The notes under the pieces were generated by a model, which had not been told where the DNA came from, searched no databases, and saw only the letters and a list, made by a program, of their open reading frames with translations. The position numbers were made by a program, and so were the translations under genes. A stretch of 64,000 bases of DNA from Symbiodinium sp. CCMP2592 (lineage: Eukaryota > Sar > Dinophyceae > Suessiales > Symbiodiniaceae): assembly GCA_905221615.1 (NCBI GenBank), contig CAJNDT010000134.1:1-64000 (forward strand), given 5' to 3'. Every line of letters starts with the position of its first letter. Position 1 is the stretch's first letter. Shown here piece after piece: positions 10,570-30,285 of the stretch.

Positions 10570-10583
10570 TCACTCACTCACTC
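10570..10583 (-). repeat. (TCAC)n tail at the 3' end of the element
   Basis: TCACTCACTCACTC reads GAGTGAGTGAGTGA on the element's sense strand, directly at the junction with the target repeat. Several non-LTR retrotransposon clades end in short tandem repeats instead of poly(A), so this fits the 3' tail. Confidence 0.6.
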
Positions 10584-10713
10584 GCGCCAGAGGAAAGTCC
10601 TGTGCTAGTCAAGCATGCAGAGGCCGAAAAGCATCCCTGCTGTAGGGATGCGGCCGGAAAGAACTACGAAATGAAAAGGGGCAAATCAGCTGTACAGACG
10701 GGAAGCGAACAGC

Positions 10714-13700
10714 TCACGCAGCAGGGTACGCCCAGAAAGCTCGCACGGAAAGCGAGGGCGGGGCGGAAGAGCCGACGAGGGCCGAACGCACAGAAGAGGC
10801 CAAGGAGGCCGAGCTGGCTGCGAGAAAGATGCGACCAGCAGAAGACCAAAAGTCCAAGAAGACAGCCGCGGGGAGCAGGCGGCGGAGCAAGGCAAGACCC
10901 AGGTGCCCGGGGTGCCCAGAAATCCACATGGCGCCCCTCAGGTGGACGGTCTTGCAGACCATGCGGAAAGAAACAAGGGCGGCGGCCAGCTCCAGCAGAG
11001 ACCGGCGGCCAGCAGTGGCGTCAGCCAGCGACACAGGGGCACCCAAACCACAAGACGAGGCCGAACGAAGTACCCCAAAGCGGCGAACGGCACGGTGCTC
11101 CCAAGGCGAGAAGAGCTCCAATGCCGACCACATGGACCAAAGCCGGTGCCAGGAAGAAGGCAGGCGGAAGACCCCACCGAGGGCAAGAAGCCCAGGCCAC
11201 CAAGGCGAAGGCAGCGCCCAGTCGGCACAAGCAGCCGCACCTTCAACAAACGAGTACCACTGGGGCAGCGTGGTACCGAGTGAACCAACCAGAGATGACG
11301 CGGGGCTCTGTAACAAGGGAGAAGAGGCGGCGTCCTCACCAAGAGAACTGAGGACAGCCACCGGCGCCGAAGCAGACGCAGACCCCGCGGCAACACGGTG
11401 AAGATTGCCGGGAACCAGGTCCGAGAGGGCTGGCGAGCGTTGAACGGCATCCCACTCCTCCTGTAACTCAGCCTCGGTAACTGGCACCCCGAGACGCGCA
11501 GCGCGCCGTTGTGCTGGGGTGGCATTACACGGACCGCAGAGACGCTGCGGTGGAACTCCCCGGTGGGCCGCGCGGCCTTTGCGCTTAGTGCCGGACCCGT
11601 ACTGGTACACCGGGCCGACAGTGACCCGGAGCCCGTGCAAACAGGGCCGCTGCGTTTGCAGGTGGTACTTCAAGCGGTCTGAGGAGTGGAAGTCCTGCAT
11701 GCACCAGAGGCACACAGAACCCGCCATGTATGCAGTGACGTCGGAAAGGACACCATGCTTTCGGTGAAGGTGAGCCCGGACGGCATGGAGGCTCGGAAAG
11801 ATGTCCTGGCAGACAGGGCCGCGATAGGACTGAGCGGCACCGAGCACGTGGGTGGTTCTCCGAGCTGAGAGATCGTCCCACAGCTGGGCGCAGGCAGCAT
11901 AGCGGTGGCCGAACTTGCTCAGGGACTTGCAGGCTCGGAGCAGGGCACGCCCGTGCCTCTGCACGAAGAGAACCGTAATAGCAGGAGGCTGCTCCGGATC
12001 CCAGAGATCAAGGGACGCACCAACACGCATGCATGCCGAGACCAGAGCTTGGCACCACGGGAGCGCCCGATTCCAGGCGGCATCGACAATGTCGCGGACA
12101 GCCGCTGGCGCCTTGCAAAACAGTTGCACACACAGCCGACATTGGCTGATCACGGTCGCAAGGTCAGGTGGAGGGACATCAGCAAAGAGCCGGAGAAGCG
12201 GCGTGGTGAGCTTGTGCCCCACTTGCCATGAGGACAAGAGAATGCGGGCCGTGCGCTCAAAAAGGCCTGCCAGCGGCGCGGTCGCTCTGCCCGACTCCGC
12301 AAGAGACATAGCGAGCGAGGAGTACGCCGAAGGGAGAACTCTGCCCGCAACCCAAGCACGCTTGAGCTCCCACGGAAGGCAGTTGCTGCACAGGAGGGTG
12401 CGAGCCATTGAGGCCGCAGCGGAGCCCCGTTGCGCCGCGAGCTCGCAGTCTCGGCGTCCAGTATCCCGGGGCAGTTGAGCAACTCCCAAATATTTGTACT
12501 CCGGGCAGAGACGGATGGAGTCTGAGTCGGAGACCTGCAGGAGGGCGTCTCCGCTCAGCAGGGCCCCACGGGCCGCCCGAGCCCCCTCACCTCGAATGTC
12601 AACCAAGGCTTCAGTTTTCCCCGCGCCGAGATTGACCCGGAAACGAAGGAGTCGAAGGGTCTCCAGAATGACACGGACGAGCTGGGGAAGCTGAGCCTGC
12701 AAATCAGCAGGGCAGTCAAAGTCAGCTAGGACCGCGAGGTCATCAGCCCATCCAATGGGCTTGACACCGGGCGGTAGGCCAACTTCAACGCCAGCACTGG
12801 TATGAGTAATGCCGAGCTGCGCGGTGGCACGCTGGATGTGCTGCAATCCAACCGCGAAGAGCGCGCCGAACAGGATGTCAGCTAAGCCATCCCCGGGACG
12901 AGAGCCACGGGAGGCAAGGAAAATGTTGGAGGAGCCCGACAAGGACCAGTGGGACAGCGCAACACAGTCACGAAGCAGGGCGGCGACATCGTCCGCGACC
13001 CCCAGGGCAGCAAGAGCTCCTTGTTGCTGAAGCTTCAAGACAAGACCTGCGAGGTGATGGTGCTCTGGCACCTGGGCATCAGCCGCGAAGCCGTCAAAGA
13101 GCAAGTCCCGACTGGCCTCATAGTAGGCGGCTTGGATGTCAACAAAGACAACGGCCAAACAGCGCCCAGCTGAGACAGAGAGGTCCCACGCGCACCGAAA
13201 AGCGGCGAGAGCAAACCCCGTGTGAACCCCTTTACGCCCTCCCAACTGCATGGGCTCATAGCGAGAGAGGATGTGCCCTCCTATGGTCGACCGAAGGTGC
13301 GAGTGCCATAGCTTGGCAACGCCATTAAGAAGGGCAATGGAGCGGTAGTTGGCCGGCAGGGATGCGGGCCCTTTTTTGTAAAGGGCGCATACAATGGCGG
13401 CCTTGAAGTCAAAAGGCTCTCGGCCTTGAAGGGCAATCCTGGCGCACAGGGGCCAAAGCCAGCGGCCTGCATGGGCACCCTGCGACCGCCAGAGCTCGTT
13501 ACGCAGTCCATCCGGTCCAGGGGCTTTAGCCGGAGCTTGGCGGATGCAGAGCTGCTCAAGCTGGAGCAGAGAGGGGACCGCTTCAAAGCAAGGGAGGCAG
13601 GGCGAGGACATCCAGCTGACCGCCGCCTGAGACAATTGCGCGGCCTCGACCTTGCTGGCTCCTTCTTGAGCGCGAAATTGATCTTCAAGCTCCGGGTCAA

Positions 13701-16700
13701 TGTCATATCCCCCAGCCGCGTGGACGGCTCGCCTTTCGTGGGACTTACGGGAGGCCCAACGGAGATGCCGGATGGACTCAAGAGGGACTCCAGTAGACTC
13801 CCAATGCCGAGCGGCCGCAAGAGTGAGGGAGCGAAAGTGGGCTTGTTTATCAGCGCGGGCGAGATAGTGTGCCTTTTGCTGCAGGCCACGCACATGCAGG
13901 TTACAAGCTTGAAGCAAGAGCCTAGCGTGCTGAAGGCCCGTAGGGTCGGGGCGAGCTGTGCTGGCATCGGGGCGCGCACAACAGTGGCGCCAGACCTGCA
14001 AAAGAAAACGCCGCTGTTGCCACTCGACATTGGCTCGCAAAGCGGGAAGCTGTTCCCGACCCTGCCTGACCTTCTCGAGAGCAGCCACAGAGGAGGAAGA
14101 AATATATGGCTGGCGGATGGGTCGCCTCGGCGGGCTGGGGAGAGCTCGCAGGAGACGGAGGTGCCGCCGCTTAAGGGCTTGGACCTCATGGCCGACACTC
14201 ACGATAGCGCCAATGGATGGGGAGAGTCCTTGCCAGAGATCAGCCGCAAGAGTTTGAGCCTGCAAGGCGGTTGCCCGTGGAGGGGGGCGCAAGCGCGCGG
14301 CAGGGGCCGGTCGGCCCCGAAGCTCACATTCAACAAGCAAGGGCATATGGTCGCGCCGACCGTTCAGAATATCAAATTCAGGGAGCTGGCAGGAGCGGCG
14401 ATACTGCCAGGAACCCGCCTGAAGCAGAATGTGATCAAGACGCTTGCGGGTACCGCCAGTGTGCTCCCAAGACCAGCCCGGGCCAACCTGGATATCAGAG
14501 AAGGAGGCTGGGGCCGTCAGCCGAAAGCGTTGCATGGTATCGAACAGGCCTTGCTCGCCAGCCCCTTCTTCACCACACCCTAGGCCGTCCCCGATGAAGG
14601 CATGATCCTCATCGGCCCACAGAAGGTCGGCATTGGCATCAAGGCCAATAACAAGTGTTAGGGTCCGAGGCAACTGGCACAGCGAGGCCTGCAGTGAAGA
14701 CCAAAATTGATGAATCTCCGCGGCCGGCCTGTCAGCGTGGGGTGCATGCGCCACCGCGATGGCCAGCGGGAAGTCTGCTCGTTTGCACACAATGATGAGG
14801 CTGCGGGGGGTGGCGTTTGTAATGCGCCAATCGTCAAGGCGCAGTGGCGGGTTCGTGAGATGTGGTCTCACCCAAATTTCGCAGCCATAGCTGCCCTTGG
14901 CGGCCCCGGACCTCCAGGTGAGCAAACCGGCAGTATCCCAGCGTCCCCCTTTGCTGCGGGTCTCTTGCAGACAAACAATGTCGAGGCTCAGTTTAGCCAC
15001 TTGGGAGTACAGGTACTGGCGGCGTTGACCGTGTCCCGACGGATTGAAGAAGGAGGCACGGGAATCATGCATCGTCTGGACATTAGCCGTAACGATGCGA
15101 AGAGGGACGGGGGAAGTCATGGTTGGCTGGCGAGGCTCATCCAGCACCGGGGCTTCTGAGGGGCCAGCCGGCGGGGATTCTTGGGCATACGGCTCTTTCG
15201 CCTGAGGCGCTGGAGGAAGGGAGTCTGAGACAAGCTGAAGGCAAGGCCGCCCTTGTTGAACCCGCGCTCCGGGAACAGCCCATAGCCAAGGCCCGGCCTG
15301 GCGGAAGAGGGCAGGCAGAGTGGGGTCAGTTTGTTTCCAGGGCCGCCACCCGCGTTGCCCCACCCAACCAGCAAGAAAGTCAGCAAGCGTATTCGGCATG
15401 ATGCCGACATGGCTGTGCACATGCTGAAAGCGGGTGGTGAGGCGAGACTGGACAGCCTGCCACACGTAACGAGTGTCAGTGGTGACATTCTCGCCGGCTT
15501 GCGCCTGCCCAGCGGCGATCTGGAGGGCGGCGGCATTATCCACTGCAATAGTGACCCGAGTAGGCGCGGAAGAGGTGAGCAGCAAGAATCGGTCGACCCA
15601 TGCAACAAGCCACAGGCCAGCAGCCTGGAGGGCCCACAGCTCCGCATGGAAAGAGAGGCCGGCGGGGGGCTGCCCTTGGGGCGACCACGGGAGGTCAGCG
15701 CCAGTAGCTCCGAACCAGCCGAGGCGATACCAGCGGCTGCGCCACCACGCCCAGGCACAGAAGGCCCAAGCTCCACCGTGCTCACCACTGCCATCCGTAG
15801 CGATAAAGATCTGTTCCGGAACGCCGCCTGGCCAGAGCGGGTAACTGGAGAACTCCCGGTGGTAAGAGGCCGGGGCAGAGGCAGGGAGACAGGGAAACAA
15901 GTCATGCGACCACCAGAGCTGGTGCAGAGACGCTTGCGCCACACACTCCTCATGAAGGTCGGCTGTCCAGGAGATACCGTCCGAGCTGGACCATGAGGGG
16001 GCGCCCCAGGCTCGAAGGTAACAGCGGGTACGTGCCAAAAGACCACTATCCAGGTTGGGCGGGTTTGCGGCCCGATACTCCGGAGGGGTGGAGCCAGACT
16101 GCGCTTCAGGCGGGCGCAACTGACAGCGCAGCGTCCAAAGACCCAAAGCTCCGAACCAGGACCACCTAGACATCCTAGGGAACAACAAACCGCCTATGAG
16201 ACCGAAAAGGAGAGGGGAGGGAGCGCTGCAACAGGGAGAGCTGCTATCACCATCCCTCAGCAACCCGCCGGATCCGTATCGAGGAACAGTGCGAGCATGC
16301 AGCGGCTGTCGTCGGGACAAGACATTGGCCCATAGGAGGTTGGGGCTTTCAGGTACCAGATGAAGACCGAGATCATCACTGCGGTCTGCGGGTATCCAGC
16401 GTCCCACACTAAACCTTGCGAGCGTGGGCCGGAAGGTACAATGGTCGGGGTCCCATTGCTCGTTGCGGTCCGTGGGCACAGTGAGCGGTGCCGGTTCCCC
16501 AGGAGACCATGCGAAGAGCAAACCGGGTTGCCGAATTCTGAACGGGCTCCCCCAGAAGGCAAACTGCCGGGCTTGTTGGAGAGTCTCCCAGAAGCGCCCA
16601 ACAGGCGAACGCAGGCGGGGAACCCATTCAGCCCCAGCGAGTGTGAGGACGTCACCCGAGCGTAGAAAGAGGGTCGGGTGAGAGGAGTGGGCGGACCCGC

Positions 16701-18410
16701 ACCACATCTCAGGCGGGGCAAGAACCTGGGGGAGGTCCGGCGCCGAGCGCCTGCACGCCCCAGTGAGATCAGCAGCCGCACATGTGGCCGGTAACAGCGC
16801 TGCCCGGGTGGCTGGCGGACATTGAAGAAGAACAGTGGCAAATAAGGGATCCGAGGGGATCGGGACCCAGTCCACAACACGGTGGTCTTGTGGCGGTCGC
16901 ACCTGGGTAAAGGAGGACCACGCCGGTGCAGCGTCCTGCAGGGCTGGAGGGGGCACGGCAGCAGGTCCCCAAAAGGGCCCGAGGATGCTACCGGCAGGGT
17001 CCCAGAGACGGTGGCACGTGCCCTGAGGGTGCATAGTGCTGACTTGTGCTGGGGCATCCGGAGTGCGTTTGTGGCAATCCGCAGTATCCCCAGAAAGGCG
17101 CATCCCAGTGGCAAACGGGGGTGCCAGGGGACTAGCAAGCAGAAGGGCAGGGGCTAAGATGCCTACACTGTCCCGGAGAGCGTGTAGCATTGCGAGGCCA
17201 AAGGCCCAGCGAGCAACCCTGAGGGAAAAGGCAGGCTCCGTACCAGAAACAATGTCCCCGCTACGCAGGGTGGTCCCTTGCCGTAGCTCTTGGTGAGGGA
17301 CCCCTAGGACACGAGGCTGACTAGAAACCGTGGGCAGGTCCGTCCAAAGCTGCCACGCATCTGTGACGGCGGTAACTGTAGCGCACCAGCAGTGCCCGTC
17401 AGCTTCCACAACAACATTGACACTCGAGGGGTCATCCGGGAGCACAACTAAGTGAGCAAATTCTTGCGCAATCCAGGGGACCGGCACCCATCGACCCGGG
17501 TAGTGGAGGCTAAAGTCGCCAGCAAATGTATAGTCGAGAGCTCTCCATTGGGATCCGGCGGGCGCGTGACCACGAATAGCGCGTTGGCCAGGCCGCCAGA
17601 GTATGAAAGACACTCGGGTCGTGACCGAAAAGTCCACGGCCCAGATCGCACAGTGACGAACTTGCTCGTCTGTGTGGAAGCAGGGCGGTTGGTAGTCCGG
17701 CGCGAAGGCAGTGGGTGGCAGAGCAACAACAAGGTCACCCGAGCGCCATCGGACCGCCTGATCAGCGGTGGAATCCGCAGAGAGTGAGCTAGGCGCCCTT
17801 AAAGACAACGTGTGCATGGGCTGCAGTGCCCGTAACGCAGAGCTGAGCCACGAGACTGACGTGGAGCAAGGCACCAGAATCGAAAAGTGCCGATCCAAGG
17901 AAGTGACAGCCAGGCAGACAAGGTCAGGGGTAAGTGGCCGCGGTACCACCAACAGGGCCGGGGTGGCTGCAGTCGGCCACACAGGTACCACGTCGGCGCC
18001 CCATACCGGGTCACAGGCCCGGGTCAAAGCACTGAGTTCGGAGATGGGGGCTGCGGCTGGGAGGCGGCCAGCTTCCTGCGGCCCCGTAAAGGGGCTAAGA
18101 TAGACGATATCAAGCTCGGTGCCGGAGGACACATTAACCAGATCCGCTTCTCTCGGCGACATACGCCAGGGGTAGAGGCCAGCCCGGATGGGTTGCTCCG
18201 GGACCTCGGCAACCGGGACCATACTCAAACCCACGTGCAGAGAGAGAGCGAGCACCGTCCATCGAGGGCAATGGGCGAGAAGCGCAATCAGAGGCGCCCA
18301 AAGAGCAGAACGAGCAGCAGCCGGAGATGCGGCAGGAGGTGTCCCTGGTTCCGGTTCAGCAGGACCTAATGGGGGTGGCCCAAAGGATCCCAGACAAGGT
18401 CGGCAGTAGG
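10714..18410 (-). CDS. Giant ORF2, segment 5: modules, RNase H, endonuclease, RT, zinc fingers
   Basis: About 2,550 codons are uninterrupted. In order: a hydrophobic pair (18230-18350); a module pair ending at 17230; a hydrophobic stretch; a module pair ending at 16240; hydrophobic segments to 16120; RNase H at 15340-15820; APE-like endonuclease at 14320-15105; RT at 12690-13590 with the catalytic Asp pair in GWADDLAVL; a thumb motif (YKYLG); zinc-finger region 11630-11840; and a C-terminal domain of about 300 residues. The first apparent start near 18255 is a GTG and the frame is open upstream, so it is not a real initiation site. Cleavage of this chain into functional proteins is plausible, but no protease is visible. 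Confidence 0.8.
11630..11840 (-). other. C-terminal zinc-finger region of the element
   Basis: Two finger-like units lie here. The first (about 11765-11835) reads GPVCQDIFPSLHAVRAHLHR with the His pair kept, but the first expected Cys is Gly (GGC; one base from TGC). The second (about 11635-11730) reads CLWCMQDFHSSDRLKYHLQ then Cys, a C2HC arrangement. Such fingers in telomere- or rDNA-targeted LINEs contact DNA or RNA. The first finger is probably impaired in this copy. Confidence 0.6.
12690..13590 (-). other. Reverse transcriptase domain of the element
   Basis: Motifs: APGPDGLRNELW, VCALYKKGPASLPANYRSIA (fingers), VVFVDIQAAYYEA (motif A, first catalytic Asp), GSRPGDGLADILFG (motif B), IGWADDLAVLAD (motif C with the Asp pair), KTEALVDIRG, and EYKYLG (thumb). 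Motif C has Trp-Ala-Asp-Asp where LINE RTs usually have Tyr/Phe-Ala-Asp-Asp. Catalytic residues are intact. Confidence 0.9.
14320..15105 (-). other. APE-type endonuclease domain of the element
   Basis: Exonuclease-endonuclease-phosphatase fold motifs run in order: RIVTANVQTM (Asn), DIVCLQETRSKGG (Glu), VIGLDANADL (Asp and Asn), RKRLDHILL (Asp-His) and RRDHMPLLV (terminal Asp-His). This enzyme nicks target DNA to prime reverse transcription in LINEs. All expected catalytic residues appear present. Confidence 0.85.
15340..15820 (-). other. RNase H domain of the element
   Basis: Ordered motifs of a type I RNase H are all present: IFIATDGSGEHGG (first Asp), SFHAELWALQAAG (Glu), TIAVDNAAAL (second Asp), HVHSHVG (His) and NTLADFLAGW (last Asp). 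It would remove RNA from the RNA-DNA hybrid during reverse transcription. It lies N-terminal to the endonuclease and RT. In most RNase H-bearing non-LTR elements it is C-terminal to RT, so the position is unusual. Confidence 0.85.
16120..17080 (-). other. Module cassette 6
   Basis: First module ends FLRSGDVLTLAG (16640-16675). Second has LLFAWSPGEPAPL and SVGRWIPADR, ending LLRDGDSSS (16240-16270), then hydrophobic LLFGLIGGLLF and WFGALGLWTL. RNase H follows after about 300 bp. Confidence 0.6.
17100..18200 (-). other. Module cassette 5
   Basis: Starts YPWRMSPREADLV, like FPWGVDPANRDF in cassette 2. First module ends RWRSGDLVVALPP (17705-17750). Second has DFSLHYPGRWVPVPW and VNVVVEADGHCW, ending LRSGDIVSG (17230-17275). 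Then hydrophobic FGLAMLHAL and ILAPALLLAS. Confidence 0.65.
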
Positions 18411-19420
18411 GTTGATCACCAGAACATCGCCATCTCGAAGCGAGCTGTCAGCACGAACACATTGCAGGGCTGGTAGGAGACGCCACCCCGGCGGGGTGCG
18501 AAAAACGTTGCAGCCGGCAAGAAGTCTTCCTACTGGCTCCAAATCAGGGGGAAACAGGAAAAGCACATGCGCCTTGCCAATCGAGGTCCGATGCATAAGA
18601 TGGAGGCTGGAGAGGTCACCGATGAGGACCGGTACCCAAGATCCCGAAAGCGCCTCACCATTAAGGCTCCAGAAGGTGGGTCCGTCCGGATTCCAATAGC
18701 CAGCATCGCGGATGCGAAGGCAATGGCCAACTTTGCGATTAGTGTACCAAAGAAAAACTGACCCCCCAACATCAAACCGGAAGGGAAGGGACCAACTAGC
18801 GACTTGCCTGGCCCTCTCCAGGGAAGTGTATTGGAGGAGGGGAAATCTAGTGGCTTCCGGCTGGGAGTTCTCTGGCACTAGACTAAAAGCATCCCCATTA
18901 CGCAACCGTACATGAGTGTGGGGGTTGGCGGCACTCAGCACCGGAGGGGCGACCACCCGCCAGAAACGGGTATGTGGGAAAACCCGAGTGGCCAGGCGGT
19001 GAATATCAGCTAGGCTCGAGTCAACCGGTGCGAGGGCAACAGCGGAGCAGCTCTCCAGGTGAAAGACCACAGTATAGCCAGCCCGTAGGGCGCAACAGGT
19101 GCAACTGTAATTTGAGAGAGCGGTAGGACCGACCGTACAGGGAAAAACTTGCGCGCCCAGCCTCCGCAGTGCCGAGATCCAACGAGTTCTATAGCCTTCC
19201 ACGTAGCAGTAAGGTCAGCAAAGAAAACCTCACTCCAACCTCGAAAGGGGCAAAGCACCCTGGCCGTTTGCGGGCGCGGCCCAGGGAAGCAGCGCGCAAG
19301 AGGGCAATCGGGCGAGTCCGGTTGCCAGCCACCTTGAATGACAAAGGGCTCGCCGTCATTGAAGTCAACCCTGGGCGGGAAGAATCGGCCGGGCCATGAC
19401 GAGGCCGGGGATCGGCTGCG
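18230..19420 (-). other. Module cassette 4
   Basis: Starts near RFFPPRVDFNDGEP. First module ends LRNGDAFSLVPE (18870-18920), second ends LRDGDVLVINP (18400-18450), then a hydrophobic pair (ALWAPLIALLA; VLALSLHVGLSM). It spans two frame changes, yet the cassette order is intact. Confidence 0.6.
18366..19202 (-). CDS. Giant ORF2, segment 4
   Basis: This is one module pair: VRLRNGDAFSLVPE at about 18870-18920 and SLRDGDVLVINPTAD at about 18400-18450, with FLWYTN and a GSWVPVL stretch between, matching the other copies. The frame stops at 18366 just after the second motif. The next frame (-1) is open across this point and continues directly into a hydrophobic pair, so the stop is most easily read as a small indel near the C-run at 18366-18385. 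Confidence 0.6.
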   Translation of the reverse strand: MEGYRTRWISALRRLGAQVFPCTVGPTALSNYSCTCCALRAGYTVVFHLESCSAVALAPVDSSLADIHRLATRVFPHTRFWRVVAPPVLSAANPHTHVRLRNGDAFSLVPENSQPEATRFPLLQYTSLERARQVASWSLPFRFDVGGSVFLWYTNRKVGHCLRIRDAGYWNPDGPTFWSLNGEALSGSWVPVLIGDLSSLHLMHRTSIGKAHVLFLFPPDLEPVGRLLAGCNVFRTPPGWRLLPALQCVRADSSLRDGDVLVINPTADLVWDPLGHPH

Positions 19421-20683
19421 GCTCGGGCGCCGCCTCGTGCGGATGGTGCGAGCCTCGGAAGAGTCGACGCTTGGACAACCGCTCGAGGCACCGGAAGACA
19501 CAGCCCAGCCCTGGGTGGTGAAGCTGTAAACAAACCAGGCGAGCTGAACAAACAAGGAACCCCGCTGGGCGAATAGGCCGGTAGCGGTTGAAAGCACCCA
19601 CCAGTCGCCATCACGCACATTGGCAACAGAGCAGGCACGACTAGTGGCGGGCCGGAGCGAAAACCCATCGATATAAAGATCATGGGCAGCATCCCGTGCT
19701 ATTTCCATACAACGAGTAGAGTCACGAGATTGAATGATATTGGCTCTCCCCTCAGCGGCGGACTGTTCCACAAGCCAAGGAGGGGCCCCAAGATGGCCGT
19801 GGCAGGGGGCCCAACGGTGAGAGCCGAGCTCGTGCTCGTGGCGTTGCACGGTGGCCGCGGCCGCATCCCATCTGGCCTGATGACCCAGGAGAGCGATTCG
19901 CGCAGGGCGGCAGGGGGACCACAGGAGAACGCAAGAGGCTTGGGCCACAACGAAGTCGGAGTGCCACGCCGCGGCCGTATGAGCAGCGCCCCATGTGAGA
20001 AAAACAGGCGGCTCACGTGGGCCAGCAAGGGGGTCAAGCTGAGGGGGGTGGACAGCAACAACATCCCCTGACCGGAGTGCCAGAACCGGGCGGGCGGACC
20101 GAGCGGCAGTTGCCAAACCAGGGGGCAGGCTAACACAAACGCGGCGACCAAGGCGCATCTGGATCGCCTGCATCAGGTCTCTGGGGGTAAGAAAGGCGGG
20201 CAGAATAACACATAGTAACTGCCCGAGACCCGCAACAATGATGCAGACCAGGCGACTTCCTGGGAGCGGCACCACGACTTGGGCTCCATCAAGGACAAGC
20301 CCCGTAGCAGCGAAACCCTTATGCCATGATGTGAGGGTGTGGTGCGCATCAGATGACGGCATCGAACAGGTGTTGGGGGTCCACTTCCGCCCGGGCCCAC
20401 GAGGCAAAGGGATTGGCAACAGTGACGGTGAGGCGGGGGGGAGCTGCAACAGGAATCGGGGCTGAAGAGGCAGAGGCCTGCATGTGCATGGCATGGGCCG
20501 CAGGCAGGCACATAGAGGCGGCCAAGAGATAAGGCCCGAGGGCTGCCGGCAGGGAGGAGGCTCGCAACCCCAGAGCACCGAAAAGAAGGACGGCAGGGTG
20601 GGATCGCCTGGACAGGAGACTGGCAAGTGCAAGACCCCAAAAGTGCGACCGGCCAAAGCAGGTGCTGCGAGCAAAGTGACCAA
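19010..20683 (-). CDS. Giant ORF2, segment 3
   Basis: The part that continues the array is about 19195-20350; the ends of this frame beyond that overlap the neighbours and are probably not used. It carries ALRSGDVVAVHPP at about 20041-20090 and NVRDGDWWVLS at about 19590-19630, an LLW(S/R)PxxPA stretch between them as in the other copies, and one hydrophobic segment (SLFVQLAWFVYSF) near 19515-19560. The switch to the next frame falls near 19200, where VEGYRTRWISALRRLG resembles AEGYPTRWLRDLMRRL in segment 2. That match supports continuity across the shift. Confidence 0.6.
   Translation of the reverse strand: MVTLLAAPALAGRTFGVLHLPVSCPGDPTLPSFFSVLWGCEPPPCRQPSGLISWPPLCACLRPMPCTCRPLPLQPRFLLQLPPASPSLLPIPLPRGPGRKWTPNTCSMPSSDAHHTLTSWHKGFAATGLVLDGAQVVVPLPGSRLVCIIVAGLGQLLCVILPAFLTPRDLMQAIQMRLGRRVCVSLPPGLATAARSARPVLALRSGDVVAVHPPQLDPLAGPREPPVFLTWGAAHTAAAWHSDFVVAQASCVLLWSPCRPARIALLGHQARWDAAAATVQRHEHELGSHRWAPCHGHLGAPPWLVEQSAAEGRANIIQSRDSTRCMEIARDAAHDLYIDGFSLRPATSRACSVANVRDGDWWVLSTATGLFAQRGSLFVQLAWFVYSFTTQGWAVSSGASSGCPSVDSSEARTIRTRRRPSRSRSPASSWPGRFFPPRVDFNDGEPFVIQGGWQPDSPDCPLARCFPGPRPQTARVLCPFRGWSEVFFADLTATWKAIELVGSRHCGGWARKFFPVRSVLPLSQITVAPVAPYGLAILWSFTWRAAPLLPSHRLTRA
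19510..20480 (-). other. Module cassette 3
   Basis: First module ends ALRSGDVVAVHPP (20041-20090). Second contains VLLWSPCRPARIALLGHQ and ends NVRDGDWW (19590-19630), followed by one hydrophobic segment. Confidence 0.6.
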
Positions 20684-23600
20684 AAATTACATCGCCGTTC
20701 CGAAGCTCACACGCTTGGTCGATGGCATATGAGGGCACTCCTCCCACACAAATGGTGGCGGGGAGAAAGTTAAGCTGGGAGGCAATATGGTCACGAGAGG
20801 TGATGCGGTCAACTGAACGACATAACCGGCCTTCCGGAGTGGCAGCGACGACGTTGACCTTAGCTGCAACCCCATTAACCTCGATCAGCTGCAGGGCGCG
20901 GGCTCGGGTCCATTGGACCGGCGTCCACATGCCGGGGAAGTGGTTTTGGAACGTGCCCGAAAAAGTGAAAGTCTCTGGACACCAGGCTTCGCCGGCAGCA
21001 ATGGAGGCCAGGAGCGGTGGCCGCTCGGGTCGAAGTAGATGTACAGAAATGCCGAACATGAGCTGAAATCCGACGGCCCACGGAGCGTGATGTGCCGCAA
21101 GTCCGTCCTGAAGGTGCCACGGCTCGACAAACTCCAGTGGTTCGGAAGGATCCTCGGGTGGATCATGGACATGGACCACGTCACCGTTGCGGAAGCGGAA
21201 AGCCGCTGGTGGGACATCAAAAAGCTCGCTAACAGCAAGGCCATGGGGAAGTGAGATGCCACCAACCGGGTGATTAATGTGACGGGCAATGAAGGCCGTG
21301 AGCCAGTCCACCGTCATGGTCCGTGGCGCCAGGGTGGCCCTGTGGTGGCCACGCCACACCAACATGATGGTGACAAGCGCGGCATCCTGTCCAACCGGAA
21401 CGATCGACAGCTCGTTGAAAGCAGGTCCTGGCCAGACCGGGAAGAACTCTGAAGCCCAACCCGGATCGTCGTTAAGGAACTGCGCCCAAACTTGTGAGTG
21501 CCGGGTCTCTTGCGAGGCAGTATAGGGGGGGAAGACTCCCTGGAAAGGGCTATGCAGGACGACGTAAACAGGATCGTCGGCCGTGATGCCTGAAAAGTCA
21601 CGGTTGGCCGGGTCAACACCCCATGGGAACCCTCCTGGACGATGCATGCCCGATACCAGGGCGGCTCCGAAGAAGAGACCGAAGGTGAAGAGAGGAGAGG
21701 CGCCTCGACCCTGTAGTCCGAAACCTAAAAGACCCCACCAAAGGTTAACCCGAGACCAGCAAGCGGAAGAAGCAGCGGTGTCGGCCTCGCTTGCTGCAGC
21801 CGTGGCAGAAGGGTGGGAAGCAGTGGCAGTGTCAGGAAGAAGATGGCTCGCAGCCGTGCGAGCAGTGCAGCGGCGGGCAGCCAAGCAGTCGCCGTTGCGG
21901 AATTGGACCACAGCAGAGCCTTCTTGGAACTCCGGGGGGTTAAGGTTACAAGCGTGGCCTTCCAGCACAAGCGCCCCGAGGGCGGTAACAGGGACGCAAT
22001 TTGGCAGGCAGCAGGGAATGAGGCGGTCATCAAAAACGATCCCTACCGCTGCATTTCCCGGAGCAACTGGGCAGCCGATAAGGTGCACCGCGGAGGAATC
22101 TGGCTGAGGCTGAAGGAGAACAAGACCAGCCCACCCGCGATGTCTGGCATGGCTGGCAAAGAGCGTGAGTGGATTTATCGCAGGGCCGGCCGCGTACTCG
22201 ACCATCTCACATTGAGGCCTAGCCGTGAAGGGGTTATGAATGCAGAAGGGCGTGCCTAGCGGAATAGCCGCTGCAAAAGTGCGCAAGCCCCGCTGGCGGT
22301 TCAGGAGACCGGATTGAACTCTGCGGACGGCGTCTTCATCGGCCGCCGGCTCCCGGTCGACAGGAGAGGGCCACAGGCCCAAGGCATAGTCCTCCAGTGG
22401 ACGGGCCGCGCGCAGAAAGAGGAGCCGGGGCTGAAAGGGAGCGTTGACAGGCTCAGGAGGTGGTGGCCCTGCAGGTTGGGAGAATGGTGTCGGAGCAGAG
22501 CTAGCAGACGACATATTCACCGCGACATCCATGTCGGAGTTAGAGGCATTAGGGGCAGGCTCTTCATCGGAGCTAGCCGACCCCGGGAGGATATATGACC
22601 CTCGACACAGAGGGGAGACATGCAGAAGGCTGAAGAGGAGGCCAAGGCGGGGGTGACCAAGCGTCCCCAGTAGCACGAAGATGGCCCAGGAGCTCGCTGC
22701 TCCCCGCTGACAACCGGAGGGACTACCCATATCCAATAGGTCGACGTCGGGTGGCAAGGCCGCAGCAGCAGCAGTGACCTCGGGGGGCCGAGAGACTGGC
22801 CCGGCGCAATCAGCGGGCTCTGCGTCGGGCTCGGCAAGGCCAGCCCATAGCCTGGAGGTGTGGAAGGTGAGTTCTTGGGCGAGAGAGTGAGTGCCCTGGT
22901 CAACCAATGTAGTGGGCACGTAGCCGTCGGGCCGCCTGCTGCCCCCAGCATCAATGAGAATTGCGGGCTCAAGTGCAGGTCCCTTGCTGGGGACATGTTG
23001 GAACCACGGGCCATCCACAACATAAGGTTCGGGATGCCAAGGATCGTCTTCACTGGGGACACGAGCCAGAGCTCCGATTAGAAGCTGGATAATTGCCCCA
23101 GACGGGAGGTCTGGCAAAGCAGCGCCCGGGGGGTAAAAGGCACCGGCGTAGGCGATGGCTGGGCAACGGTCGGGGACTTGGCCCCCCGGAAAGAGCGTGC
23201 GCAAATGTGCCGAAACGACATCCCAACTAAAGGGGGTGTGACCAAAGGCAACGACGGCCGCCTCACCCCAGTGCAAGAGCCAAAAGCGATTGCGCGGCAC
23301 AGTGGGGGGCACGAATGGGACAAACAGAACATGCTGGACGCCGCTGTCCCGGGGGCCACACGTGGACCGAAACTCACCGGGATCGTCGATGCTGTGCAAA
23401 CGGCGCATGAGATCACGCAACCACCTGGTGGGGTAACCTTCGGCCCGCCATGGTAGATCCACAGGCTGGCGGACATTGAGGGTCCAGATGCGCATGATCG
23501 CAGGTAGAGCGGGCGGCTCAACGGCTGGTACCAGGGGCAGCTCCGGAACGGTTTGCATCGAGGCGGCTTGGCCACTAAGCAAGAGAAGAGCCAAGCCTCC

Positions 23601-24536
23601 CGCGAGCGACATTGAGCCCGCCTTGGCGGCTACAACCTGAAGGACCCCGTCAACCACCCTACCCACGAGACCAGGAAGGACCTTGGCAACAAGGGCTCGG
23701 GCTCCATGCGGGCTTGGGGTCATGAACCTCACTTCTGCTGATGGCTCAACGCTGTAGACGGCACCGTCGGGCTCGATGGCGCAGAAGAAAAAGGAGCAAT
23801 GCGAGACGTAGTGTTGTACCACGGGACGTAACAGTTCGCACCCAATCGTATCTTTCACAATCCACCACGCAGCTGCGCCAGGAGGGGCAATGATAAGATC
23901 AAGAACCTGAGGGTTAGAGTCGAAGGCGACGTGGAGACCGTATTCACAGGCCGGCAAGAAACCCCCTAAGTAGGCTCCTAAGTGGGCACCTAGGTGCTGC
24001 GCCGCCACACGCAGATGAATAGGGCCCTGTCCGGGAAGCCATAGGTGCATTTGGACCTCGGAGGAAGGGCAAGTTCGGGCGATGTAGGCCCCAAGATGTG
24101 GGGAGGCTACCGCGAAGCCATAGGTCTGTCGGCTCAGCTCATGCGTCCACGACATCGTGCAAGGCCTGGCGAAGTCCCTGCGCAGCTGTAGGCAGCCATC
24201 CGGCAAGGTCCTAGGCTGCAGGGTAGTGGACGGGAGAGAGAGTTGCACCGCATTGACAACCGAAGCTAAAACAACCATTAGGCACCCAACCCTAGTGCTG
24301 CGCAGCCCGGCGAGACGCAGTGCCGCCGACGCCAAGCTCGGGGGGGTGGGCGACGGGCTCGGGCTGCTGTGCTGACACTGTTTCCAGAGTTGGGCAACTC
24401 CTTCATGCGAGTCGTAGCCGACGCTGACACAGAGTCGCAACGGCAGAGAGTTCACTTGGATACGGCCAGACCCGCTGGTTATCCGAGAGGAACGTGTGCG
24501 GAAGCTCCCACAGCGAGATATCAAGAGCGGTGGCAA
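20349..24536 (-). CDS. Giant ORF2, segment 2: repeated modules and membrane segments
   Basis: This segment continues segment 1 after a frame change within 24403-24536. It contains a hydrophobic stretch near 23570-23640 (SLAGGLALLLLSG) and a module with WLLHWGEAAVVAFGHTPF near 23230-23290. Arg-x-Gly-Asp motifs lie at about 21890 (QFRNGDCLAARR), 21180 (RFRNGDVVHVHDPP) and 20690 (ELRNGDVIFGHF). Hydrophobic pairs lie near 21650-21800 and 20545-20660. The segment ends FDAVI then a stop at 20349, where the next frame takes over within a few codons. That close hand-over argues for an indel, not a natural terminus. Confidence 0.65.
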   Translation of the reverse strand: MPPLLISRCGSFRTRSSRITSGSGRIQVNSLPLRLCVSVGYDSHEGVAQLWKQCQHSSPSPSPTPPSLASAALRLAGLRSTRVGCLMVVLASVVNAVQLSLPSTTLQPRTLPDGCLQLRRDFARPCTMSWTHELSRQTYGFAVASPHLGAYIARTCPSSEVQMHLWLPGQGPIHLRVAAQHLGAHLGAYLGGFLPACEYGLHVAFDSNPQVLDLIIAPPGAAAWWIVKDTIGCELLRPVVQHYVSHCSFFFCAIEPDGAVYSVEPSAEVRFMTPSPHGARALVAKVLPGLVGRVVDGVLQVVAAKAGSMSLAGGLALLLLSGQAASMQTVPELPLVPAVEPPALPAIMRIWTLNVRQPVDLPWRAEGYPTRWLRDLMRRLHSIDDPGEFRSTCGPRDSGVQHVLFVPFVPPTVPRNRFWLLHWGEAAVVAFGHTPFSWDVVSAHLRTLFPGGQVPDRCPAIAYAGAFYPPGAALPDLPSGAIIQLLIGALARVPSEDDPWHPEPYVVDGPWFQHVPSKGPALEPAILIDAGGSRRPDGYVPTTLVDQGTHSLAQELTFHTSRLWAGLAEPDAEPADCAGPVSRPPEVTAAAAALPPDVDLLDMGSPSGCQRGAASSWAIFVLLGTLGHPRLGLLFSLLHVSPLCRGSYILPGSASSDEEPAPNASNSDMDVAVNMSSASSAPTPFSQPAGPPPPEPVNAPFQPRLLFLRAARPLEDYALGLWPSPVDREPAADEDAVRRVQSGLLNRQRGLRTFAAAIPLGTPFCIHNPFTARPQCEMVEYAAGPAINPLTLFASHARHRGWAGLVLLQPQPDSSAVHLIGCPVAPGNAAVGIVFDDRLIPCCLPNCVPVTALGALVLEGHACNLNPPEFQEGSAVVQFRNGDCLAARRCTARTAASHLLPDTATASHPSATAAASEADTAASSACWSRVNLWWGLLGFGLQGRGASPLFTFGLFFGAALVSGMHRPGGFPWGVDPANRDFSGITADDPVYVVLHSPFQGVFPPYTASQETRHSQVWAQFLNDDPGWASEFFPVWPGPAFNELSIVPVGQDAALVTIMLVWRGHHRATLAPRTMTVDWLTAFIARHINHPVGGISLPHGLAVSELFDVPPAAFRFRNGDVVHVHDPPEDPSEPLEFVEPWHLQDGLAAHHAPWAVGFQLMFGISVHLLRPERPPLLASIAAGEAWCPETFTFSGTFQNHFPGMWTPVQWTRARALQLIEVNGVAAKVNVVAATPEGRLCRSVDRITSRDHIASQLNFLPATICVGGVPSYAIDQACELRNGDVIFGHFARSTCFGRSHFWGLALASLLSRRSHPAVLLFGALGLRASSLPAALGPYLLAASMCLPAAHAMHMQASASSAPIPVAAPPRLTVTVANPFASWARAEVDPQHLFDAVI
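20540..21620 (-). other. Module cassette 2
   Basis: Starts FPWGVDPANRDF. First module ends RFRNGDVVHVHDPP (21145-21205). Second module has GTFQNHFPGMWTPVQW and AKVNVVAATPEG, ending ELRNGDVIFG (20670-20715). Then a hydrophobic pair (FWGLALASLL; LLFGALGLRAS). This is the clearest copy. Confidence 0.65.
21650..22260 (-). other. Module cassette 1 (partial) with hydrophobic tail
   Basis: This is a module ending VVQFRNGDCLAARR at about 21865-21915, preceded by GIVFDDRLIPCCLPN. It is followed, after an Ala/Ser/Thr-rich linker, by a hydrophobic pair (LWWGLLGFGL and FTFGLFFGAALVSG). Only the second module of the pair is clear. Confidence 0.5.
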
Positions 24537-27500
24537 CAGCTTCCCACGAAGGGGCCGGAGTGCACATACCCAGGAGGCTGCTGCCCTCTCGAAGGGCCCA
24601 TGCAGTGAAGCCCGGGATGCAAGTTATCAAGCACTTGACGTGCCTCGCGTCGCACCAGAGACTGACAAGGTCGGTGGCCGAATCTGGAACGACCCCGACG
24701 CTGCATGCAGACGGGGGTGCTTGGAGGATGGAGGTTTGGGTATTAGTAACCAAAAAGGGGGCACTAGTCTGGACCCCAACACTATGGGCAGTCTTAATGC
24801 GGGGCACAGGCAGGAAGTCTGGGGATCGCCGTATTAAGGGGGGTTGCCAGTGCAAATGTATCGAGTGTCGTCGTGCACGCCCGAAGTCAGCTTGGGCGTG
24901 CACTACCCAGAAATGGCAGTCCTCCCGTCCTGGAAAGGGGGAAGACTCCCAAGACAGCACAGACAGCCCAAAAGGCTGGACCGTCCGCAGTAGAAGGGCA
25001 GCAGGCCCTGAATTCCGGAGGAGACTCTCGAGAAACACTGGGAAGGACGAGAACACACCCGCAAAGGCCATGAAGAGCCCAACCGCGGAGGGGTCGTGGA
25101 CATCGGTGAGCCTGTAAATGATACAGTCCTGCCCCGGGCGCACCGCAGCAAAGGTGGAGTGGGGCAGGGCGTCGGCCCCTGGCACTTCAAGGAAAACATG
25201 CCTCCCAGGGATACTGGTGCCAAGCAGGGCCCGAAGTAACGGGGTGGTCAGATCGGCCGAGCGCGGGACCTCAAAGGTGAGTACTCCGTCGCTAGGATGA
25301 AGGATGGAGACAAGCCGAGAAGTCTGTAACCAGCGGGAAGCCGTCTCAGAGTCGGAAGGGAGAACAAAGGCTGACACGTCCAGTGTGCGAGCTGGGGCAC
25401 CAGCTGCGATCCGGACAACATCGCCGTGTCGGAGGCGATGAGCAAAGCCCTTCAAGATCTGCACCTCTTCCGCCTCGGCAGCCTGTTGCGCAATGCGCAA
25501 AACCTGAACGGCAGTGTAATCAGACGGTAACTCCGCACAGACAACCTGAGAGCCGGCATCAAATAACACTGTCAGCATCCGTGGGTGCTGAGGGAGAGTG
25601 ACCAAATTAATAGCGTCGCTGGTGGGACCTGCAGACGCAGCAACAACCTGGGGGCGCCCCAGGCGGATGGCCTGGCGGTAAATCTCAGCAGCAGCCTCAC
25701 GGGCGGAGCCCAAACCGGAGAATTCAAGCCTGACGGACGTGCCCGGCGACCACAGCCGACATGTAATCAGATAGCCCCTCTCTTGCACCGGAAGCGACTT
25801 CCACAAGGGACCTTCGCCGAAGTCCCCTTCCTGAAGCCAAACAGCTTGGAGAGAAGCGTGAATACTGGCTGGCGCAGCAACCCTTCTATCCGTAGCTCTA
25901 GCAGCGGAGACGACAACCTCACGCGGAGAAGCTGGTTCGCTGTGCAGGTGAACGGTGCAGGAGGGCACAAAACCAAGCAATGCTATGAGGATGTAGCTGC
26001 GGGCGCAGCACGGCATGCTAAGAGCTCCGCCATGAGCCAAGACAAGAAGGAGGCTGGAGAAGCAGAGGCGCCGAGGTCGCGCGTGGGAAGGCGCCGGACC
26101 ATCATCAAAGGCAGACCCAGGCGTCTCATCAGCCTGAGGCGCAGGTGTTTCTGGGAGGGCTGCAGGCGGGTCAAGAAAGGCAGCCGGGGAGATCCCGGTA
26201 CAAGCCGGCATGGCTGTGGCTGTTTGAGATCTAGCTGGAGACGGCAGTAAAGTGTGCTGCATCGAAATGACAGTATCGGTAGCACCAGAGGCAGCAGGTT
26301 CGTCCCAGCCCCCTACCTGTTCCTCAGAGGAGGACGAGGAGTCCTGTCGGAAGACATGTGGGAAGAACATTAAGACTAGCGGGAAGTTGCCGGTGAGGAC
26401 CTGGTCAGGCAAAACCACTAACTCCCGATGTAGCAACCCGAAACCCCCTCTAGAGCATTGCTCAACCCATTCCAACGGAATGCAATTGCGCTCTCTCCTG
26501 GAAGCAGCACCGATGGCGGCGACGGCGGTGACCGGCGGAACCACACACACAGTGGTAAGACGCCAGCCAACTGGACGAAAGTCCAGGATGCACGGTACCT
26601 CATCCCCTATGCAGTGGACTTCCAGAAACTGGACTAAAGGGAGGGAAGGCAGCGGCTGCCAGATGCGCATGGTCCCCCCAGTGGCATGGGGAGAGGCTTG
26701 CGTAGCAACGATGCGACGAAAAGTGGCCGCGTCGGCGAAGACCGGAGCTTCAACATATACTAGGCCATTGGGGGTTATTAGCACTGCCTGGTTGTGAGAG
26801 CGGCCGTGGAAAACCTCGGGGCCTGTAGGATAGGTGGGGAGGCTGACCTGCATAGCCGAGAAAAGAGAAATGGGAGGGTCAAGGGAGGCTCCAACAGGGC
26901 CTTGCAGGGACTCCAGCGCTGGCCCAATCTGAAACTGCAAAGTGTCAACATCTTGCAGAAAAAGAGGCTGGGAAGTTAGCGTAAGCCACCCCCATTGGCA
27001 TCGCGCAAGAAGGCGATCCAGGTCAGCACGAACCTCCTGGGCTGTCATGGCAAGCTGAGCAATAGACCTGCAAGTGGAGTCGCGAGAGCAGAGCAGCATG
27101 CAAACACGGCCTCCAAGCTGCCTGAGGTCAACCGGGAGCCACACCTGGCGCCAGGTGCAGGTAACAGGGGACAACAGGAGCTGCTCACCTGGGAGCCCAG
27201 GCAGTACCCCACGAATTGGGCAAACCGAGAAGGTGTTCGCCATGAAGCCAAGGGAGGCAGACAACCGAGCGTGCAGGAGAGGGCCATGGAGCCACTCATC
27301 CACAAGGAACGGGACGGGGCAAGGCTCGAGAACAGGCGCTCCCGGAGGAGTGCCGACGAAGACAGCCAAGTGTCGGCGGTTGCGGTCTGTGCGGGGAAGA
27401 AGAAGATTACCAGTCCGGCCGACTGGATAAACCTCACACATAGCATCCACAGAGGGAGTGGGCAAGACAGGACCTGTGCTGAGAACGGGACGTCCTTCAT

Positions 27501-28240
27501 GAAACCCATGTGCATGCAGTTGCACCGCCTCCGGAGACCGCGAGCAGGAGGCTGCGAGGAGGACACCAAGGTGCAAAGACGAGCCATCCACAACCGAGAG
27601 GTAGCCAAGGAAAAGGGCCGTTCCCAGGCGACGGCAGCCAGATACACGAGCACCCAGTCGGCTTTTGCAACGGCTGCTGCCAACACGACGGCACGGAGTC
27701 CCATTCCGGGTGCACGACCAAGCATCCTCGACCTCAGAAAGACAAAGGGTAACCCAGCGGGTCACAAAGGACAGCCGAAGGGGTTTCCGCCACATGCAGG
27801 TCCGGTGGAGGAGGGAACGGCACCGGGAAGCGAAGCCGCCAGGACAAGCACAAGTGCAAAGATGGCCAAGGCGCGTAGAGCCCAAGTCCAGGGCAAGACC
27901 GGGAAGGAAGGCCAAAAGTTCGCTGATGCAAGCGCAGGCAAACATGGAAGTAGGAGGCCCAAAAAGAGCTGCCACCCACCAAGCTGTCGCTGACAGGGTA
28001 CAGCTAAGCTGCCACGAGCGGCGCCACGGGAGCTGAGGTCCGTATGTGGCCAGGAAACGCTCACTGACGACGGCTACTCTGTACAGAGCTATGTACAAGA
28101 TGAGGCACCGCCCTAGGAAAAGGCTGAGAGTGGTCAAAGAAAGAGGCGATTTAACGCCGCCTTCTTGAGCACTGACAGCTGGGCTGAGTGCGACAACGCC
28201 GTTGCAGCAGAGCAGACTCGACGAAACATAGTCCAGTATC
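24403..28240 (-). CDS. Giant ORF2, segment 1: hydrophobic module-rich N-terminal part
   Basis: This frame is open from well upstream (overlapping ORF1 out of frame) to the stop at 24403. The likely genuine part starts near the ORF1 stop. It contains hydrophobic stretches near 28060-28150 (LSLFLGRCLILYIALYRVAVV), 27880-27990 and 25950-26060 (SYILIALLGFVPSC), separated by soluble-looking regions. A beta-grasp-like end motif RLRHGDVVRIAAG lies at about 25391-25445, and a Ser/Glu-rich acidic linker near 26310-26340. No in-frame ATG is close to the ORF1 stop, so translation may need -1 frameshifting or reinitiation. No known family is recognised over its length. Confidence 0.6.
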
Positions 28241-29735: not shown

Positions 29736-30272
29736 GCTTCCGTGGTGGACCTGAAGTAGGGCCCGATCTCCCGGTTGTCCGCGTCCACGATGGAGACGAC
29801 GGCGTGCCTGTGCCCGCTGTTTGCGGGCTCGGCGATGCCACGCGGGGCTCCGCGGGCGGCGCCCTGTCAGATTGGCCGCTTCCCCAGAATATCAGCAAAA
29901 ACCCAACCAAGGCCAGTGGCAGAATGGGAGTGTAGATGCGCCGAGCAGTCATACACCCCGGAGGGCAGAATAAAATACACCAAATACACCAAAGGCAGCA
30001 AGCCCCGGCTTATTGAAAAACAGCGGGGCGAGGCCCTTGAAGGGAGAGGCGCGCCCTCTCCAAAACTGACCCCTGTCAGTGGCTGACCACCAGCCAGCAA
30101 ATAACGGCCAATTAAATGGCAGCGTTATAGGAGGGCCGCAGGCCCAAAAGCGAGCGCACCACGGCGCAGCACAAGCGCAATGCGGGATTGCTGGGGTTGG
30201 GTATATACAGGCGGGGAAGGTCACACCAAATTGGTGACACCTAACTCGCAACTGTACTCGGGCCACAACGCC
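29736..30272 (-). promoter_or_regulatory. 5' untranslated region of the giant element
   Basis: About 540 bp lies between the right target repeat and the ORF1 start. It includes an imperfect palindrome near 30219-30242 (GGTGTCACCAATTTGGTGTG on the minus strand) that could fold as a hairpin. LINE promoters are internal and 5'-located, so promoter activity would be expected here, but no motif proves it. A hydrophobic-start frame beginning at 29952 overlaps this region and may be a shadow. Confidence 0.4.
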
Positions 30273-30285
30273 TTACGCCCTAAAC
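30273..30285. repeat. Right copy of 13-bp target-site duplication
   Basis: TTACGCCCTAAAC here is identical to 10557-10569 and continues into CCTAAATCCTTAACCC, a degenerate telomere-type tract. Confidence 0.7.

Follow-up and report, generated by a model that had tools for sequence, protein, structure and literature searches.

The locus described here raises a question: what is the long, repetitive coding region that precedes a reverse transcriptase (RT) in a Symbiodinium genome, and where in the cell might its product act? The window, i.e. the whole stretch of DNA that was analysed, comprises 64,000 nucleotides of Symbiodinium sp. CCMP2592 (contig CAJNDT010000134.1, positions 1 to 64,000 of the forward strand). 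A first-pass annotation had read the region as part of a retroelement polyprotein that repeats a cassette of two modules and a membrane segment. Positions 10569-30272 of the minus strand are a full-length non-LTR (long terminal repeat) retrotransposon, a giant long interspersed nuclear element (LINE) of 19.7 kb. Its second open reading frame (ORF2) encodes a single polyprotein of about 5,900 residues, in which a module chain fills the first two thirds and is followed by an RNase H, an APE-type endonuclease, the RT, and a zinc-finger region. This identification and architecture are solid. The usual picture of a LINE is a compact element whose ORF1 binds RNA and whose ORF2 is enzymatic. In the window element, a protein of nearly 6,000 residues is under selection, and some two thirds of it are modular, lack a recognised enzyme, and are apparently aimed at a membrane.

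The module chain of ORF2

Codon usage resolved a single coding path, in which ORF1 runs up to a stop at 28239 and ORF2 from about 28241 to 10764. In the window copy the ORF2 path is 5,821 residues long and stop-free; its frame changes near 24.43, 20.35, 19.08, and 18.37 kb (four changes in ORF2), besides the step between ORF1 and ORF2. In the copy C2112, 6,547 codons form a single frame without stops, which carries every labelled block in the window order and overlaps ORF1 in its first ~580 codons. Among the scored matches to one module pair (unit 2, below), eight distinct array-bearing open frames of the same genome have at least 5,600 codons.

Twelve Arg-x-Gly-Asp (R-x-G-D) sites lie on the minus strand at 25431, 21899, 21191, 20702, 20074, 19615, 18902, 18437, 17745, 17265, 16662, and 16257, as the first-pass annotation had stated, and all fall within the coding path. 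The spacings from 21191 onward are 489, 628, 459, 713, 465, 692, 480, 603, and 405 bases; the alternation with a period of about 1.1 kb, claimed from 21.18 kb on, agrees with these values. All 12 segments align with one another, and a profile built from them recovers all 12 in each of the first two rounds and 11 of 12 in the last two. Chance origin was rejected by shuffling: the mean was 0.72 sites and the maximum five in 2,000 shuffles of 3,348 residues. An RGD-type integrin ligand was also rejected; here R-x-G-D is the motif, and it precedes the last strand in register across the modules.

The other features named earlier for the second module of each pair stood in part. As read from the translations, WxPxxW is complete in B2 and B5, but only W-x-P is found in B3, B4, and B6; LLWxP is exact in B3 and near in B5. 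The hydrophobic pair said to follow each second module is present but uneven, being weak after B3, and variable and unconstrained after B6. The chain starts near 28.2 kb, further upstream than had been recognised; the 19.7-kb length of the element and the existence of a fully open copy had also escaped the first-pass annotation.

Purifying selection along the chain

Copies were searched in the genome G000 (1.098 Gb, 5,383 contigs). The ratios of nonsynonymous to synonymous substitution (dN/dS) are given as ranges over three copies, C3757, C5019, and C26, with synonymous divergence (dS) mostly below 0.5; the comparisons with C632, C391, and C835, in which dS is saturated or nearly so, are outside the ranges except where named. 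The modules from A2 to B6 mostly gave 0.00-0.15, and the same three copies gave 0.03-0.04 for the RT and 0.04-0.05 for the endonuclease. The outliers were A3 against C26 (0.30, 76 of 126 codons) and A6 against C3757 (0.34, 63 of 122 codons), both of them partial matches. The comparisons of A2 and B2 with C26 were dropped because C26 lacks these modules and another unit was matched. Purifying selection on the chain is about as strong as that on the RT. In view of the low dN/dS of its modules, the chain is therefore a selected protein. The ratios were 0.10-0.38 for hairpins 2-4, 0.49-0.83 for hairpin 5, and 0.88-1.92 for hairpin 6 (0.71 against C632). Constraint on the sequence is weaker in the hydrophobic stretches and almost absent from the last two.

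The chain can be followed along the minus strand from the start of ORF2, a hydrophobic, Cys-rich N-terminal block (27000-28241; dN/dS 0.11-0.21 against the same three copies). A hydrophobic ORF2 N-terminus is present in C2112 too. The upstream part (24431-27000) contains the module m0 (R-x-G-D at 25431) and the divergent blocks m0b and n24.9. After a hydrophobic stretch (24190-24430; dN/dS 0.13 and 0.35) come the divergent blocks n24.0 and n23.5 (22800-24190; structure model 2), a second hydrophobic stretch (22400-22800; 0.16 and 0.37), and the module m1 (21870-22400; R-x-G-D at 21899), which was placed by motif, block search, dN/dS, and model. A linker with a hydrophobic pair leads from m1 to A2 (21650-21870; 0.18-0.19).

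Five units follow, each placed by motif, alignment, and dN/dS, and units 2, 5, and 6 also by model. Unit 2 (A2 and B2, 20690-21620; R-x-G-D at 21191 and 20702) is followed by a hydrophobic hairpin (20450-20690; dN/dS 0.10-0.19), and unit 3 (A3 and B3, 19600-20430; 20074 and 19615) by a hydrophobic stretch with a weak pair (19430-19600; 0.19-0.27). The hairpin after unit 4 (A4 and B4, 18420-19400; 18902 and 18437) lies at 18210-18368 (0.14-0.38) and appears in model 1 as two short low-confidence helices. Unit 5 (A5 and B5, 17245-18189; 17745 and 17265) precedes the weakly constrained hairpin 5 (17010-17245), and unit 6 (A6 and B6, 16245-17005; 16662 and 16257) precedes the variable last stretch (16060-16245), which has no sign of constraint.

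Predicted fold of the modules

AlphaFold models cover units 2, 5, and 6, m1, n24.0, and n23.5; units 3 and 4 and positions 24.2-28.2 kb lie outside them. The unit 5 model has a strand-strand-helix-strand order, and the other modelled modules are beta-grasp-like in their order of strands and helices. The modules of units 5 and 6 mostly have a predicted local distance difference test score (pLDDT) of 80-95. The structure matches of both models were tandem ubiquitin-like proteins, RNase H, and RT. Foldseek identified linear tetra-ubiquitin with an expectation value (E) of 1.1e-5 across 379 columns, a match that concerns predicted models only and comes with low global TM-scores. Within block n23.5, the best ubiquitin match covers residues 299-375 of model 2, where pLDDT is ~60-67. 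All 50 of the 50 VIA matches listed for model 2 were ubiquitin-like or contained such a domain; those listed for model 1 were all RNase H and are uninformative on the modules. Three viral structure matches were found at E up to 0.001, two of them named ubiquitin and one a pestivirus polyprotein fragment.

A sequence link to Pfam families was found for none of the nine units at E up to 5, and no PDB sequence was matched at the same threshold. None of the aligned units has a Gly-Gly C-terminus; the modules end in strands of the R-x-G-D-V-V type, followed by linkers. The fold rests on models, and on these the modules are predicted to have ubiquitin-like beta-grasp folds. The beta-grasp interpretation made earlier was thus supported for the modelled modules, among which AlphaFold and Foldseek predict a common fold, whereas the first-pass annotation would have given way to a prediction of no common fold; as a whole it was supported in part. 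Like linear polyubiquitin, the Ubl repeats of USP7, FAT10, ISG15, and OASL, which are the best structural matches, the chain would consist of tandem ubiquitin-like beta-grasp domains. Unlike them, it has no detectable sequence similarity and no Gly-Gly ends, places a hairpin after each A-B pair, and is encoded by a retrotransposon.

Possible membrane topology, sequons, and lysine content

The linkers were scored for two 15-residue hydrophobic windows. The loops between the hydrophobic pair contain 99 K/R and 24 D/E residues in 97 non-redundant linkers after m1, B2, B4, B5, and B6, where the loop-charge background of 0.46 is a rough composition value; the five linkers after B3 contain seven of each. 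Hydropathy over 19 residues flags the core strands of the modules alongside the hairpins, and simple hydropathy was therefore not used as proof of transmembrane segments. Signal-peptidase-like ends of the form small-x-A-(M,V,T,R,A), a pattern chosen after the linkers had been inspected, follow segment 2 in 39 of 74 linkers and segment 1 in 15 of 74, as compared with 16.9 by shuffling. Plain A-x-A ends number 22 after segment 2, 14 after segment 1, and 14.6 by shuffling.

The N-x-S/T sequon is strongly avoided in the modules. Five sequons were seen in the array blocks against ~39.7 expected from other offsets (343 distinct N contexts, collapsed by similarity and still not independent), as compared with 24 seen and 27.5 expected in the catalytic part. 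No similar dip was found for Q, D, H, E, or G in the array-block control. In 24 hand-picked divergent members, the array blocks hold five sequons and 52 copies of the reversed motif, and the catalytic part 40 and 23; 37 of the 42 proteins with at least 500 array residues have no sequon in the array. The upstream regions of distant relatives show a slight shortage (63 vs 83 reversed). An avoidance confined to the modules is hard to explain otherwise and suggests that they meet the oligosaccharyl transferase of the endoplasmic reticulum (ER). This avoidance and the positive loops together favour a topology with the modules in the lumen and the loops in the cytosol; internal cutting by signal peptidase would be plausible. 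The membrane-helix linkage proposed earlier thus gained indirect support, as to both hairpins and exposure to the ER lumen, from loop charge, sequon avoidance, and segment 2 ends.

Lysine is nearly absent, with arginine at a normal level, from the ORF2 chain (28241-16245) and from the relatives P0001-P0067. The K/(K+R) ratio is 0.01-0.12 in the chain, as compared with 0.12-0.25 across the catalytic and C-terminal domains; it is 0.29 in ORF1, and the upstream regions of distant RTs have 0.21. In the window copy, the GC (guanine plus cytosine) content is similar between the lysine-poor chain and the catalytic and C-terminal domains. The lysine scarcity is possibly an escape from ubiquitination or ER-associated degradation.

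Proposed mechanism and alternative explanations

From these features we infer a topology and a function. The hydrophobic N-terminus of ORF2 would direct the nascent chain to the ER, and each A-B unit would fold in the lumen. The first hydrophobic segment after a unit may act as a stop-transfer, leaving the arginine-containing loop in the cytosol; the second may serve as the internal signal sequence of the next unit, often with a signal-peptidase-like end. The result would be a series of beta-grasp ectodomains anchored in the membrane, either still in one chain or cut, and the catalytic part would reach the cytosolic and nuclear side after the last, odd hydrophobic stretch. Such a chain might be a Gag-like scaffold that keeps RNA, the ORF1 protein, and the RT together at the continuum of ER and nuclear envelope, and its modules might stay glycan-free because they pack against each other or a partner. 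That the ER-inserted chain of luminal modules is a membrane scaffold we regard as an even call. A fuller version is tentative, and we would lean towards doubting it: about two dozen ubiquitin-like domains (an estimate from two folds per A and per B module, plus the upstream ones) would be cut by signal peptidase into anchored ectodomains. In the lumen these would assemble into a lattice free of glycans, which would carry the RT complex, either at the nuclear envelope or into vesicles. Such a LINE would possess a membrane compartment or envelope of its own, without recourse to retroviral Env.

The module chain could instead be a cytosolic or nuclear scaffold that packages RNA or recruits host factors, the hydrophobic stretches being flexible linkers or contacts between modules. 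Several observations count in this direction and weigh against ER insertion. The hydrophobic pair exceeds shuffled linkers at z >2 in just 44 of 102 cases, the chain is not enriched in cysteine, and the linkers show little or no sequon avoidance (51 vs ~61). Linkers and hairpins 5 and 6 add no support to luminal ectodomains, and these two hairpins evolve almost freely. The choice of the cleavage pattern after inspection also tells against the ER topology. The weak point of that topology is how the catalytic part would get back to the cytosol, because the final hydrophobic stretch varies and shows no sign of constraint. The chain also includes catalytic domains that require the nucleus, and other LINE proteins are cytosolic or nuclear. 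However, a cytosolic or nuclear location would leave unexplained the sequon avoidance confined to the modules, the positive loop kept across families between the hydrophobic segments, and the purifying selection on hairpins 2-4 (0.10-0.38). We consider it a rather unlikely alternative.

The signs of ER insertion, i.e. loop charge, segment 2 ends, and sequon avoidance, would equally serve an envelope-like role, in which the ectodomains go to the cell surface or vesicles for cell-to-cell or virus-like transfer; internal signal-peptidase-like sites and several ectodomains also recall the structural polyproteins of enveloped RNA viruses. Yet the endonuclease is the sole Pfam match in those ORF2 frames that were searched, both models match ubiquitin-like proteins, RNase H, and RT (with 24.2-28.2 kb outside the models), and avoidance of N-glycans is unusual for surface glycoproteins, so that this role seems improbable. 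Host-modifier mimicry had been offered by the first-pass annotation; in this reading the modules would imitate ubiquitin, ISG15, or another modifier and disturb host conjugation or degradation. The fold match to tandem ubiquitin-like proteins is in its favour, and the shortage of lysine would spare the chain from ubiquitination. It is nevertheless very unlikely, and the earlier suggestion found no support: the aligned units lack Gly-Gly ends and any sequence relation to ubiquitin or other modifier families, and the ubiquitin system does not act in the ER lumen, to which the modules seem exposed. There is practically no chance that the chain is an artefact, whether a decayed or chance open frame or unrelated sequence beside the RT. 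The window copy does have frame breaks, and GC-rich DNA yields long spurious frames on both strands, but a pseudogene or spurious frame was rejected by the RT-like dN/dS, the open frames in other copies including the fully open C2112, and the colinear homologues in dozens of elements.

If the preferred reading of an ER-inserted scaffold is true, the endomembrane system would host part of the life cycle of a LINE. Such an element would have a non-Gag, non-Env way of holding a retroelement particle at a membrane, and a large beta-grasp expansion without a detectable sequence link to ubiquitin.

Comparison with known elements

The APE-type non-LTR retrotransposons with RNase H include the I, R1, and Jockey-like groups. 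The window element resembles APE-type LINEs with RNase H in having ORF1 upstream, the endonuclease and RT on ORF2, an RNase H, a short repeat tail, and a target-site duplication. It differs from the I, R1, and Jockey-like LINEs in that its RNase H precedes the endonuclease, and in that two thirds of its ORF2 of ~5,900 residues are predicted ubiquitin-like modules with hydrophobic hairpins. In enveloped RNA viruses, structural polyproteins are cut by signal peptidase and follow the order of ectodomain, stop-transfer, internal signal, and next ectodomain. The proposed order in the window chain matches this, as a comparison of how it might work only; no homology was found, and the window ectodomains are predicted to be beta-grasp.

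According to the part of its account that was available, SymbioLINE-Dnmt is a Symbiodinium LINE with a DNA methyltransferase in ORF1, a captured extra domain under purifying selection (PMC5890265). It shares with the window element the host group, Exo_endo_phos plus RT, and an extra selected region (PMC5890265). The window element, by contrast, has no methyltransferase match in ORF1 and carries its extra region, a module chain, within ORF2; the available part of that account makes no mention of such a chain (PMC5890265). The esterase ORF1 proteins of ZfL2-1, as far as the accessible portion of the report goes, are an example of a membrane-binding LINE protein, for which Gag-like membrane targeting was proposed (PMC3905857). 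Unlike the window element, ZfL2-1 carries its esterase and a coiled coil in ORF1, and the same portion mentions no transmembrane hairpins or beta-grasp chain (PMC3905857). No report of a comparable module chain in a LINE was found among the listed titles and abstract openings of the open-licence literature, and no paper on sequon avoidance was found in that literature. The core is a LINE of a known kind, with an accessory region for which no described counterpart was found.

Relatives and distribution

With the RNase H-endonuclease-RT part of P0018, a distant member, as the query, 81 relatives were identified among the best 8,000 candidates by shared words. These were split into close and distant RTs at a drop in identity from 52% to 24%. 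At least one of the labelled window modules is present in 47 of the 55 close relatives, and in all 43 that have at least 500 upstream residues; the eight module-less ones are models with at most 348 upstream residues. Close homologues of the RT therefore carry the region, rather than consistently lacking it, the outcome that the first-pass annotation had named as fatal to its reading. None of the 26 distant relatives has a labelled module by the block test, though 22 have at least 500 upstream residues. With a profile search, P0077 gave one weak module match (17.8 bits), and P0086 and P0079 gave fainter ones (E ~0.03); on the P0077 match, the chain may predate the close clade. Profile comparison with two distant RT groups gave nothing convincing (probability 3.4 and 0.1%). 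The weak module-like match in P0077 spans residues 1694-1784 and precedes a distant RT, as do hydrophobic stretches.

The RT tree has 73 rows, and a branch with 100/100 support parts its 53 close from its 20 distant sequences; the array-bearing RTs lie on one side. Where a source is named for the close relatives, it is Symbiodinium sp. CCMP2592, S. microadriaticum, S. natans, or Symbiodinium sp. KB8. Members seem to differ in their number of A-B units, as counted by a block search that can miss diverged units. In the genome of the window itself, unit 2 has at least 128 matches (scored, of 395 candidates), and 37 of 53 scored RT loci (of 1,136 candidates) have an array unit on the same strand within 25 kb upstream. 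The 53 loci correspond to 54 rows, since one locus was listed as two pieces. The 16 RT loci without a listed unit include divergent copies, and one of them, C835, has the array by dN/dS comparison. An array restricted to one copy was rejected, since it was found across relatives and own-genome loci. A profile search of short relatives (best 8,000 candidates) gave one match, P0094, with 434 residues; on reading, it holds an A/B-like module and a hydrophobic stretch. In five distant RT relatives (P0078, P0080, P0082, P0085, and P0091), the majority line of the alignment has a GPPCNTWSRAR stretch in the C-terminal part, which we take to resemble a cytosine methyltransferase motif; perhaps a methyltransferase lies behind the RT.

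Catalytic part, ORF1, and element ends

All catalytic domains are on the minus strand. The RNase H domain (15200-16050) has the D/E/D/(H-N-AD) pattern. The APE-type endonuclease (14200-15087) was identified by its motifs and by Exo_endo_phos (PF03372, E 4.6e-9), which is the only Pfam family in the ORF2 frames searched. The RT (12200-13720) has motifs A, B, and C as FVDIQAAYY, GSRPGDGLAD, and WADDL; it has no Pfam match, and among PDB sequences it matches LINE-1 ORF2p and another RT at E 0.03-0.09 only. The zinc-finger-like region and C-terminal domain (10764-12200) were placed by block labels, dN/dS, and motif reading. With the RT motifs, the endonuclease on the same ORF, and the tail and duplication candidates, the LINE-type assignment made at first is supported. 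ORF1 (28239-29779, minus strand) was placed by the coding path; it has ~500 residues with a basic N-terminus, a dN/dS of 0.24-0.37 against C3757, C5019, and C26, and 40% identity to ORF1 of C2112. It gave no Pfam family above the cut-off, and no DNA methylase match at E up to 1, nor at 0.1 in another search.

The element (10569-30272) is bounded by the common 3' end of its copies and a 12-base duplication at both ends. Its GTGA- or GTGAAG-type tail is the shared 3' stop of five other copies of the same genome. The target-site duplication (TTTAGGGCGTAA) abuts the element at 10557-10568 (3' copy) and 30273-30284 (5' copy), and the 5' boundary rests on these 12 bases; the specificity of the duplication is lowered because the flank is TTTAGGG-rich. 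Duplication candidates of at least 12 bases abut the tail in four of the six copies with a located tail (the window copy, C5019, C3757, and, less certainly, C391), and none was found in C26 and C632. Similarity to C5019 (96-97%) and C26 stops at 30079, and that to C3757 extends to 30337, into TTTAGGG-type repeats. The first ~190 bases of the element, upstream of 30079 in minus-strand orientation, are unlike those of C5019 and C26, two copies that are similar to one another in this part; 5' ends seem to have been exchanged between subfamilies. The element ends differ from each other in the stretches read, and no search aimed at long terminal repeats was made. The C26 copy, on the plus strand of its contig, has one internal gap, in which the equivalent of window ~20.25-27.3 kb is absent.

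Other features of the window

Two further open frames lie on the minus strand. The frame at 36521-39322 has 933 residues with Sterol-sensing (E 3e-34) and Patched (E 4e-28) domains, and is probably a host gene of the RND/Patched type. The frame at 60342-61541 has 399 residues with a Fringe-like domain (E 2.3e-14). Long low-complexity arrays of the CCCACCC, TAGTAATAA, GTAGCA, and ATATGT types are located at 3179-3481, 33398-33585, 44975-45382, and 54355-54635. Telomere-type TTTAGGG repeats are scattered in the window outside the element.

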